A DNA stretch of 64,000 nucleotides. Origin: Acidiferrobacteraceae bacterium. Lineage in GTDB: Bacteria > Pseudomonadota > Gammaproteobacteria > Arenicellales > UBA868. Positions 41,478 to 45,318 of this stretch are shown in pieces (the first letter of the stretch is position 1; the number at the start of each line of letters is the position of its first letter). The position numbers were made by a program, and so were the translations under genes. The notes below the pieces were generated by a model. The model made no database searches. It was not told the origin of the DNA and saw only the letters and a program-made list of their open reading frames with translations. Where the stretch lies: the NCBI GenBank assembly GCA_002724185.1, contig PBOB01000045.1, positions 62,001 to 126,000 of the forward strand. Reading direction: 5' to 3'.

Positions 41478-42353
41478 CTACACAATTTTTCGAAGATCAT
41501 ACTCAAGTATTCCTTCAGCCCCCTCTGCTCTGAGTTGGGGGATAAGGTCTCGGACTAGATGACCGTCGACAACAGTTTCTAAGGCTACCCATCCTGTGTC
41601 CGATAATTGGCTAACAGTGGGGGCATGCAAACTTGGCAACAAGTCGATAATAGAGTCCAATCTTGTGTGCGGGGCATTCATTTTGAGTGCCACTTTACGT
41701 CTTGCCTGTAGTGAAGCTTTGAGTAGTAGCGCAATTTGCTCAATTTTCGTTTTCTTCCATGGGTCGGTTAGCGCTTTCTTATTGCTAATTAGTCGGGTAT
41801 GGGTTTCAAGCAAATCGCAGACTATTCGTAGCCCGTGAGCCCGAATTGTGCTCCCGGTCTCAGTGATTTCAACGACAGCATCAACAAGACCTTCTACGGC
41901 TTTAGCCTCAGTAGCGCCCCAGGAAAATTCAACTTGGCATTCAATGTCACGTTCGGCCAAATAGCGACGGGTAAAACTAACCAATTCAGTAGCAATTGTC
42001 TTGCCTTGAAGGTCCTCTATTTTATCGATAGGGGAATTTTCGGGCACCACCAGCACCCAACGACATGGATTGTCGGAACTTTTTGAATACAGCAGATCGC
42101 ATACCTCTTCCACTGCAATTCCACTTTCCATAATCCAGTCAAGCCCGGTTAATCCAAGATCAAGACTTCCCTGACCTACATATAGTGGCATTTCCTGCGA
42201 GCGAACTAGTGCGCAAGAGATCTCAGGATCATTTATTCTGGGGAAATAGTTACGGGATTGCGAGCGAATATCCCAGCCCGCCTGCCTAAATAAGCTGATA
42301 GTGGCTTCTTCCAAGCTTCCTTTGGGAATTCCAAGTTTTAGCTGATTTTTCAT
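41478..42353 (-). CDS. hisG: ATP phosphoribosyltransferase, long form
   Basis: First enzyme of histidine synthesis, joining ATP and PRPP. The 291-aa length and the C-terminal ACT-like regulatory domain from about residue 225 (including LPSLHAPTVSQL and GWVALETVVDG) identify the long, histidine-feedback-inhibited HisG that does not need HisZ. The catalytic part has LGIPKGSLEEATI, YVGQGSLDLGLTGLDW and the PRPP loop in VEGLVDAVVEITETGSTIR. It is not in a his operon here. It converges with the CcmG-like gene. Confidence 0.95.
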   Translation of the reverse strand: MKNQLKLGIPKGSLEEATISLFRQAGWDIRSQSRNYFPRINDPEISCALVRSQEMPLYVGQGSLDLGLTGLDWIMESGIAVEEVCDLLYSKSSDNPCRWVLVVPENSPIDKIEDLQGKTIATELVSFTRRYLAERDIECQVEFSWGATEAKAVEGLVDAVVEITETGSTIRAHGLRIVCDLLETHTRLISNKKALTDPWKKTKIEQIALLLKASLQARRKVALKMNAPHTRLDSIIDLLPSLHAPTVSQLSDTGWVALETVVDGHLVRDLIPQLRAEGAEGILEYDLRKIV

Positions 42354-43098
42354 TTTGCTATATTGCCAAGGTCTAACTTATTGTCGTTTTTATAGTCATG
42401 TAGAGGGTCTAATTATCGCATAAGCTTCGCACGAGGTCGTGCCCATTAAGATCATTGGCATTATCTAGAATTTAAGCTGTAGCAGATTCCGATCGATTTG
42501 TATTCGCTGGATAAGGTGGGAACTATTTATTTTCGGAGATAAGGTTGAATGCAGACAAGCGTTTCTATTGCGGAAGATATGCTACACAAATTGACTATAG
42601 GTCATATTTTGATGCGAGTATTATTACCTCATTCTGAAATCCAAAGATTATGAGCGCCATTAACAAGGTGCCACGACTTTGGTATCTTGGTGTTCTACCG
42701 TGTTGCTAATTGAAGCACGTAAACAATTGATCTGAAAGTGTGAATGCGTTAAGTACGCCTTGCTCAGACTCGTATGCTAAGGAAGGATTTATACACACGG
42801 ATTGAATGTGCAGAAGCGTTCGATGGCGATGTTTTTGTTGATAAACTTAACTGGGATCCAGAAGCATCTAACTCTTTGAATAAAAAAGGTTAAATTAACT
42901 GCCTAAGAAATAGGCAATCAACAATATACTACCAAATGGTCCGGCCACATAACAAATCTCAAAGTTTTATGCACAAAGTTATCCACAGGTTGCTGTGGGA
43001 AACTCGGAACCTCTTTTACTGTCAATATGTTATCGCTACTCGTTACGAAACGACTCTCGTCTTTTCTTGTAAATTTAACTTATGTGAAGTGAAAGACC
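42354..43098. promoter_or_regulatory. 745-bp gene-free region between hisG and priA with DnaA boxes
   Basis: The longest gap in the window, between divergent hisG and priA. It contains three perfect TTATNCACA sites (listed separately), a 14-bp dyad GCACGA-GG-TCGTGC at 42429-42442, an AT-rich stretch around 42875-42950, and a TGCCTA/TAGGCA hairpin at 42900-42916. TTATCCACA is directly followed by an inverted CCACAG/CTGTGG pair. A 39-codon frame at 42774-42893 is noted under findings. The combination resembles a replication origin or a DnaA-controlled promoter. Confidence 0.5.
42789..42987 (+). promoter_or_regulatory. Cluster of three DnaA-box consensus sites
   Basis: TTATACACA at 42789-42797, TTATGCACA at 42967-42975 and TTATCCACA at 42979-42987 all match the TTATNCACA consensus exactly and face the same way. 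The last two start 12 bp apart. By simple counting about 0.02 such sites would be expected on both strands of a 745-bp region with even base composition. Function as origin or regulatory sites is inferred. Confidence 0.6.
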
Positions 43099-45318
43099 AT
43101 GACGACTGACAAGCTTAATACCGTTGTTCAAGTTGCCGTGCCGATTCGATTGCGAAAAGTTTTGGACTATCAGCTGCCTGAGGGGTATTCGTCATTGGCC
43201 GAAGGCACTAGAGTTCGCATCACTGTGAAGTTACGAGAAATGACAGGTATCGTAGTAGGTTCCAAGAAGTCAGAACTACCTGAGGAGGGGCTCATAAGGG
43301 TTGTCAGGGTTTTGGACGAATCGCCATGCATACCGCCATCATTGCTAAAACTTTTGAGATGGTCTTCATCATACTACCACCACCCGCTCGGAGAGGTCAT
43401 ACAGACAGCTTTACCAAGTATTCTGCGGGGCGATAGCAAGATCAAGCCAGATCTGCCGTTTAGATATTATCTGACGTCTAATGGTGCCGAAGCTCTAAAT
43501 GGCATCCCAAAGAATGCCACCAATCAGCGCTTGTTACTTACTGAGCTTTCTAAAGCAAGTCCAGATGGCCTTTCCTCGAGCACTTTATCTAAGTTGGCCC
43601 CATCTTCGTCTACCAAATTACTGCGTGATCGTGGGTGGATTAACGTTCGGGAAGATTCAAGGGATTTTCTGTACGTTGGGCAAGAGCAAGATAGTGCTGC
43701 GATAGCTTTGAATCAGTCACAGCGAAGCGCTGTTTCGGAGATAAGTGTCGCTTTGCAAAGATATCAGCCATTCTTGCTCCAGGGTGTTACTGGGAGTGGT
43801 AAAACTGAAATTTACCTGGAGTTGGCCACGAGGGTTATCAAAACAGGGTGTCAAGTGCTCTTGTTGGTGCCAGAGATTGCTCTCACACCGCAATTGATTG
43901 GGCGCTTTAAAAGAGGGCTTAATGGCAAGATCGCAGTTTTGCACTCCCGGCTTAGTAATAAGGACAGGCATATTGCTTGGTGGGCAGCTCGAGAGGGGAT
44001 AGCGGACGTAATACTGGGTACTAGATCTGCAGTTTTTGTACCATTGGCTCGCCCAGGGATGTACATAGTCGATGAAGAGCATGACTCGGCCTATAAGCAG
44101 CAGGAAGGATTTCGCTATAACGCTCGTGATTTAATTGTAAAGCGTGCTCAGCAGGATGACATTCCAGCTGTGCTCGGCTCGGCCACCCCGTCTTTGGAAT
44201 CAATGCAAAATGCAAAGATTGGACGCTACGGCCATCTAGTCCTGCGAGATCGTGCTCGGGGAGCTATGATGCCGAAGATCAGTTTATTGAATGTGAAACA
44301 GTTACCACTTACATTTGGTATTTCTTCGCCTGTTCTTGAGGCTTTACGCCTCAGACTAGATCGTGGCGAACAGAGTATCGTTTATATCAATCGCAGGGGT
44401 TTTGCACCTATTTTATGGTGTCCTAAATGCAACTGGCGCGCCCGTTGTTCTCGTTGTGATGTATATCTGACGCTACATCGGCCAAGCAATCAGTTGAGAT
44501 GTCACCACTGCGGTGCATCGAATAAACCATCCGAAAATTGCCCCGATTGCAAGCATATCTCGTTAAAAGCAGTTGGCCAGGGCACCCAAAGAGTCGAGGA
44601 AACGCTGCAGAAATATCTTCCATCTGCTCGAATTGTGCGGTTTGACAGCGATAGTATTGGGAAAGCAAATGTTTTAGCAGAACGCCTAGCTCAGGTTTTA
44701 GAGGGAAATGTCGATATTTTGGTAGGGACTCAACTGTTGGCCAAAGGCCACAATTTTCCAGCTGTTACTCTAGTCTGTATCGTTGACGCGGATAGCGGTC
44801 TCTACAGTTTTGATTTTCGTGCCGTCGAAAGGCTATATCAGACGCTAACCCAAGTCGCTGGCCGAGCTGGCCGAGCTAGTCGCTCTGGCCAGGTGCTTGT
44901 GCAGACTCAATATCCGGAAAATTCAGCGTTTTCACGACTTATGGAAAATGATTTTTCTGGATTTGTGGATTTTGAACTAAAGCAGCGGCAATTGGCGAAC
45001 TGTCCGCCATTTGTCCGGTTTGTACTACTCCGTGCGGAATCGGTCTCCTCTGATTCATCGATAAGATTCGTGACTGCCGCTGCACAATTAGGCCAGCAGA
45101 TACTCCGAAAACAATCATCGTCGATTCGACTTATGGATCCAGTGCCTTCACCAATGGAACGACGATCTGGAAGATACAGAGCCCAGTTGTTAGTTACCGG
45201 CTGCGTTGAAACTGCATTACATCGTTTTCTTGATAATTGGCTAAATGAGCTTGATAAGCTTGAGATAGGTCGCCGGGTACGTTGGTCTCTCGACGTTGAT
45301 CCACTCGATATTTATTAG
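43099..45318 (+). CDS. priA: Primosomal replication protein N' (PriA helicase)
   Basis: Restarts collapsed replication forks by loading the primosome. The 739-aa protein has the N-terminal 3' DNA-binding domain (QVAVPIRLRKVLDYQLPE), Walker A GVTGSGKTEIYLELA near residue 230, DEEHDSAYKQ, and the zinc-binding insertion CPKCNWRARCSRCDVYLTLH and CHHCG ... CPDCKH that contacts PriB and the fork. Helicase motifs V and VI (LVGTQLLAKGHNFP; QVAGRAGRASR) are intact. It functions together with RecBCD, also encoded here, in double-strand-break repair. No clear ribosome site; GTGAAGTGAAAG lies upstream. Confidence 0.97.
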   Translation: MTTDKLNTVVQVAVPIRLRKVLDYQLPEGYSSLAEGTRVRITVKLREMTGIVVGSKKSELPEEGLIRVVRVLDESPCIPPSLLKLLRWSSSYYHHPLGEVIQTALPSILRGDSKIKPDLPFRYYLTSNGAEALNGIPKNATNQRLLLTELSKASPDGLSSSTLSKLAPSSSTKLLRDRGWINVREDSRDFLYVGQEQDSAAIALNQSQRSAVSEISVALQRYQPFLLQGVTGSGKTEIYLELATRVIKTGCQVLLLVPEIALTPQLIGRFKRGLNGKIAVLHSRLSNKDRHIAWWAAREGIADVILGTRSAVFVPLARPGMYIVDEEHDSAYKQQEGFRYNARDLIVKRAQQDDIPAVLGSATPSLESMQNAKIGRYGHLVLRDRARGAMMPKISLLNVKQLPLTFGISSPVLEALRLRLDRGEQSIVYINRRGFAPILWCPKCNWRARCSRCDVYLTLHRPSNQLRCHHCGASNKPSENCPDCKHISLKAVGQGTQRVEETLQKYLPSARIVRFDSDSIGKANVLAERLAQVLEGNVDILVGTQLLAKGHNFPAVTLVCIVDADSGLYSFDFRAVERLYQTLTQVAGRAGRASRSGQVLVQTQYPENSAFSRLMENDFSGFVDFELKQRQLANCPPFVRFVLLRAESVSSDSSIRFVTAAAQLGQQILRKQSSSIRLMDPVPSPMERRSGRYRAQLLVTGCVETALHRFLDNWLNELDKLEIGRRVRWSLDVDPLDIY

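Follow-up and report, generated by a model that had tools for sequence, protein, structure and literature searches.

Within the window, the 64-kb stretch of DNA analyzed here (C33:62001-126000 of a draft genome of 96 contigs), a gap at 42354-43098 is bounded by hisG (41478-42353, minus strand) and by priA (43099-45318, plus strand), which encodes the primosomal replication-restart helicase and was identified by homology to annotated priA genes. A pattern scan bore out the claim of a sequence-only reading that three exact DnaA boxes (TTATNCACA) lie in this gap, all on the plus strand with starts at 42789, 42967, and 42979, and these are the sole exact TTATNCACA sites in the window. The first, box A (TTATACACA; 42789-42797), matches the consensus exactly and lies 190 bp upstream of box II. 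Box III (TTATGCACA; 42967-42975) and box II (TTATCCACA; 42979-42987) are the first and second halves of a double box with 9-3-9 spacing (TTATNCACANNNTTATNCACA), the only exact one in the genome. Whole-window shuffles contained 2.65 exact sites on average, so a total of three is ordinary and the clustering alone is unusual. Across the 2.69-Mb genome, exact TTATNCACA sites number 71, compared with 82 for the same pattern read backwards, and the earlier estimate of ~0.02 sites expected by chance per 745 bp agrees with the count of 71.

Further predicted sites in the gap had been overlooked. An inverted and degenerate fourth box, box I (TTTCCCACA, 7 of 9 positions), occupies 42994-43002 on the minus strand at +15 from box II. 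A perfect Fis consensus (GCCTAAGAAATAGGC; strand neutral) lies at 42901-42915, 78 bp upstream of box II (-78), and a predicted IHF-like site (ATTCAAAGAGTTA, matching 12 of the 13 positions of WATCAANNNNTTR) lies at 42869-42881 on the minus strand (-110). A second IHF-like match on the plus strand (AATCAACAATATA; 42916-42928) is not conserved in position, being found at this offset in the window and one relative only, and a conserved TCAATNNNTTA motif, also IHF-like (12/13), stands at 43020-43032 on the plus strand (+41). An Rfam search of the gap returned no match, and an RNA element was dropped as a candidate on that basis. A sigma-70 promoter as the reason for the block of conserved sequence beyond box II was likewise rejected, as none rose above shuffles.

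Conservation of the element upstream of priA

A DNA search with the gap against 60 relatives returned short matches at ~80 to 90% identity around gap positions 613 to 662, which correspond to the double box and the DNA that follows it and lie upstream of priA in about a dozen genomes of the same family; the alignment to the sister species spans gap positions 341 to 710. The exact pattern CACANASTTATCCACAG was recovered from 47 of 61 genomes, mostly as one copy each, with 0 matches for the reversed control, and it lies directly upstream of priA in nearly all genomes of the family and in several other families. Within the order, priA is the constant neighbor of the element, which precedes 45 of 50 priA loci and consists of box A, an interval of 186 to 193 bp, the 9-3-9 double box, and usually an inverted box at +14 or +15. 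The five priA loci from which it is missing are those of a single genus in family f11, with four genomes, and of one further genome. Adjacency to hisG is lost in most relatives, and a tie of the element to hisG was rejected because hisG is its neighbor in some relatives only. Conservation in related genomes had been proposed as a check on the boxes, and they proved to be strongly conserved upstream of priA.

The internal spacing of the 45 elements is rigid, whereas their distance to priA varies from 80 to 233 bp. Box A matches the consensus at 8 or more of 9 positions in every element and exactly in 27, at 186 to 193 bp upstream of box II, with one exceptional box A at -179, a helical turn shorter. 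Box III, kept in 45 of the 50 priA loci, lies at -12, and box II is invariant in the dereplicated family alignment. The Fis consensus GnnYAnnnnnTRnnC is found at -77 or -78 in 41 of 45 elements, often as GCCTAAAAAATAGGC, and 23 of 45 have the IHF-like WATCAANNNNTTR between -109 and -112 on the minus strand, the match falling below threshold in about half. Inverted box I lies at +14 in most of the 45, often as TTRCYCACA, and is unrecognizable in three; it matches 7 of 9 positions in the window, its sister species, and most of the family. The TCAATNNNTTA motif recurs at +40 or +41 in a large minority. After dereplication to 31 elements, Fis sites remain in 27, IHF sites in 18, and an exact box A in 23. 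What is conserved in the gap is a composite site in which predicted binding sites for DnaA, Fis, and IHF are held in a rigid geometry and which has, as compared below, the architecture of a DARS core. The window's own copy may be weaker than those of its relatives, given that its box I is degenerate and displaced by 1 bp.

It might be argued that the boxes are a chance cluster of DnaA-like 9-mers, since the totals of exact boxes in the window and the genome are not above chance. Against this, both sequence and spacing are conserved across many families and the reversed pattern gives no matches, and we regard coincidence as vanishingly improbable.

Comparison with DARS, datA, and the replication origin

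Read in the same direction as the window, E. coli DARS1 is TAATACACA-3-TTATCCACA-5-inverted TTATCCACT and DARS2 is TTCTTCACA-3-CTATCCACA-5-inverted TTATTCACC. Core offsets of -12, 0, and +14 with an inverted box I are therefore common to DARS1, DARS2, and the elements of most relatives, compared with a box I offset of +15 in the window's genus. Equal spacing of boxes I to III and the inversion of box I are what DARS cores have in common (PMC5742627). The three-box spacing is present in most relatives and only approximately in the window (box I at +15, 7/9), where box I is nonetheless opposed to boxes II and III. DARS1, located between bioD and uvrB, shares the core geometry of the element, and no IHF-like site or upstream exact box was found there. 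DARS1 is active without IHF or Fis.

The closer likeness is to DARS2. In the rppH-mutH intergenic region of E. coli, we located two IHF-like sites separated by 3 bp (-99 and -83), which agrees with the published IBS1-2. Farther out, the Fis consensus is matched perfectly at -137, and a box at -197, exact but inverted, is probably box V. As in DARS2, the predicted IHF and Fis sites of the element lie on the box III side, and an exact DnaA box lies ~190 to 197 bp upstream. E. coli DARS2 depends on both IHF and Fis, which are needed at fixed helical positions, and the predicted IHF site at -110 (12/13) is about one helical turn from the E. coli site at -99. The order of sites differs: DARS2 reads box (-197, inverted), Fis (-137), IHF (-99/-83), and core, while the element reads box A (-190, direct), IHF (-110), Fis (-78), and core. 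Moving outward, the sequence core-IHF-Fis is replaced by core-Fis-IHF, and we therefore file the element as a DARS2 variant rather than as a plain DARS2 orthologue. Also at odds with a plain match are the weak box I (7/9), which in the window and the sister species is displaced outward by 1 bp, and the direct orientation of box A, compared with the inverted box at -197 in E. coli. Unlike DARS2, moreover, the element is origin proximal and linked to priA instead of lying in mid-replichore, and box I is weaker in the window's genus.

The sequence-only reading had offered a datA-like titration locus as one possibility, and a site for hydrolysis of DnaA-bound ATP or for titration of DnaA near the origin would suit the position of the element, ~99 kb from the origin in the window's genome and ~114 to 253 kb in three complete genomes. 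E. coli datA (glyVXY-queG) resembles the element in combining a double box, an IHF site, and a distant box in one direction, with the IHF site between the boxes. Its order is reversed, however, running from the double box (boxes 7-2) through an IHF site (+65) to box 3 (+162), an order that the element does not have, and it lacks an inverted box I at +14, which is a DARS feature. Furthermore, the minimal datA includes a site for IHF but none for Fis (PMC5742627). DARS2 is the nearer match, and we consider a datA-like function unlikely. Double boxes of the E. coli DnaA regulon, at polA and purH, likewise place a tandem pair with 9-3-9 spacing ahead of a replication gene, and DnaA in vivo prefers pairs of boxes 2 to 3 bp apart, DARS2 included (PMC11317965). 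To such a pair the element adds a third box in inverted orientation, predicted sites for Fis and IHF, and a distant box, all at fixed spacing.

A nonstandard oriC had also been suggested for the gap, partly on the grounds that dnaA, dnaN, and rpmH are absent. Their absence holds for the window and fails for its contig, where dnaA, identified by Pfam, lies at about C33:4590-5912. Its neighborhood (C33:4.4-6.1 kb) includes genes that, from a reading of their translations, we take to be mnmE, yidC, rnpA, rpmH, dnaN, and gyrB, and exact boxes flank dnaA on both sides. The standard origin therefore lies ~99 kb from the gap, and the check on GC skew went against an origin here, with cumulative skew rising along the contig from ~4 kb to its end and reaching no extremum near the element. 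The element coincides neither with a skew switch accompanied by a dnaA neighborhood nor with the only dense cluster of boxes. A second or alternative origin could be imagined from DnaA boxes in AT-rich DNA, and autonomously replicating second elements have been reported in Pseudomonas aeruginosa (cited in PMC4403523). Given that the contig has its canonical oriC at rpmH-dnaA, that skew reaches no extremum at the element, and that the core geometry is of the DARS type rather than that of oriC, we consider this very improbable; the Pseudomonas species checked are also without the element at priA, and for this reason no link to the P. aeruginosa second origin was drawn. The general proposal of a DnaA-binding regulatory locus was thus right in kind, as the boxes are conserved, and wrong with respect to oriC, with DARS2 a nearer relative than datA.

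Distribution of the core and its linkage to priA

A search for nothing but the core, covering 84,980 species with one genome apiece, gave at least 117 stretches, mostly from gamma- and betaproteobacteria among the matches listed. Data from the order had already been seen when the core pattern was drawn up, and circularity was guarded against by genome-wide enrichments and reversed-pattern controls. Among 96 listed loci with full flanks, chosen on the core alone, 30 have an exact upstream DnaA box at -194 to -175 (same-width background mean of 0.46, maximum of 4), 51 have an IHF-like site at -112 to -108 (background of 0.43, maximum of 3), and perfect Fis sites in the bin from -80 to -71 number 31, compared with a mean of 1.1 per bin. 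These enrichments in the flanks of core-selected loci indicate that the composite site is real and old. The position of box A is near -187 to -193 at gammaproteobacterial loci, compared with about -176 to -180 at several loci from betaproteobacteria. With one genome sampled per family, the core (at most 1 mismatch) was present in 105 of 134 gammaproteobacterial families, and the reversed pattern in 0.

The main rival to the DARS interpretation is that the element is a priA promoter region under the control of DnaA, Fis, and IHF, activating or repressing, so that restart capacity tracks the replication cycle. All three proteins are known to regulate transcription. In the order, 45 of 50 loci keep the element upstream of priA while the gene on the opposite side changes, and across the class the core lies on the same strand as priA, 37 to 201 bp upstream of it, in at least 27 genomes (27 among the 79 listed, one per family); it also precedes priA in Luteimonas and Janthinobacterium. 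Lasting linkage at 80 to 233 bp is also what would be expected of a promoter-regulatory site. The same range sits uneasily with control of priA when set against the rigid internal spacing, and no sigma-70 site above shuffles was found near the core. Moreover, many genomes carry the same core at other loci, including xseA-exbB, RDD-lptFG, the rppH-mutH region of E. coli, and a position near rpmE (neighboring genes whose names presumably hold, some having been assigned from a reading of translations), and its function therefore does not need priA. Tested genomes of Pseudomonas, Acinetobacter, Marinobacter, Aeromonas, and Legionella have the core at other loci and none at priA, and priA of E. coli, Klebsiella, and Halomonas is without it. 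For Aeromonas, Halomonas, Acinetobacter, and Klebsiella-type loci, PriA homologues in PLSDB served as chromosome stand-ins, with no core at priA. Because the distance to the gene is variable and copies exist elsewhere, this alternative is weakened, and we consider priA control by itself rather unlikely, although it could coexist with a DARS function.

Other settings of the core were also observed. In three complete genomes, the priA-linked core is ~114, 249, and 253 kb from dnaA, and a second core is 0.5 to 1.0 Mb away (distances by subtraction). No second core of the +14 pattern was found in the window's own genome, and a near double box at C83:36439 was rejected as one, having neither an inverted box nor a replication-gene context. 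Other families of the order have a second conserved double box upstream of a gene of the RDD family, next to lptF/lptG in some genomes and accompanied by an inverted box at +14 in several (among loci L085, L086, L088, L091, L093, L094, and L096); on its sequence, it is a candidate second DARS-like locus. Betaproteobacteria carry a DARS-like core beside xseA, encoding the exonuclease VII large subunit (L108, L120, L124, L133, L146, L156, L159, L161, L170, and L177), and several of these have an exbB/motA-type gene on the opposite side. In Janthinobacterium sp. S3T4, four DARS-like cores follow one another in tandem, ~160 bp apart (L133:7385-7902), and one genome (G117) has seven, all on the forward strand of their contigs. 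Pfam searches of the tested open frames beside non-priA cores in Pseudomonas and Marinobacter returned no match. Several large P. aeruginosa plasmids (160 to 204 kb) encode their own PriA homologue.

A possible role in DnaA reactivation

Taken as a whole, the comparison makes it probable that the gap holds a DnaA-reactivating element of the DARS2 type, with Fis and IHF sites reordered and with linkage to priA. Protein binding and DnaA reactivation are projected here from E. coli DARS2. By that analogy, ADP-DnaA would occupy boxes I to III, and head-to-head contact between DnaA on box II and DnaA on box I would lead to release of ADP, switched on by DNA bending through IHF together with Fis. 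The freed apo-DnaA would then rebind ATP and become competent to fire oriC. In E. coli DARS2, ATP-DnaA at box V displaces Fis, and box A may act in the manner proposed for box V, with ATP-DnaA feeding back to displace Fis; alternatively, it may contact the core by way of the IHF bend. The origin-proximal position upstream of priA would lead to early copying of the element, and, more speculatively, the state of DnaA could also influence priA transcription. The window's genome, a draft estimated to be 92.9% complete, encodes two IhfA-type proteins (C9:654-920 and C74:29270-29536) and one HU, and IhfB was not found in it. The presence of two IhfA-type genes without IhfB could reflect paralogy, a contaminating contig, or incompleteness of the assembly.

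Published descriptions of DARS sites cover E. coli and relatives out to Vibrio and Shewanella; the DARS2 core has been called specific to E. coli-related gammaproteobacteria (PMC4245941, PMC8682772). In the open-access literature searched, we found no report of DARS outside the relatives of E. coli, and the system that recharges DnaA may be far more widespread than described. We tentatively suggest, as a possibility we would not press, that DARS-type reactivation is ancestral in gamma- and betaproteobacteria and that E. coli DARS1 and DARS2 are derived from it, and that the priA-linked form, with its fixed DnaA/Fis/IHF spacing and ATP-DnaA feedback at box A, also tunes priA and so couples initiation potential to fork-restart capacity. 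The variation in site order, box A orientation, and box I strength offers natural variants for tests of the DnaA-IHF-Fis complex, and the persistence of the element at priA raises the question of its reason. If the DARS interpretation holds, recycling of DnaA by DNA sites would be a general regulator of replication timing across the class.
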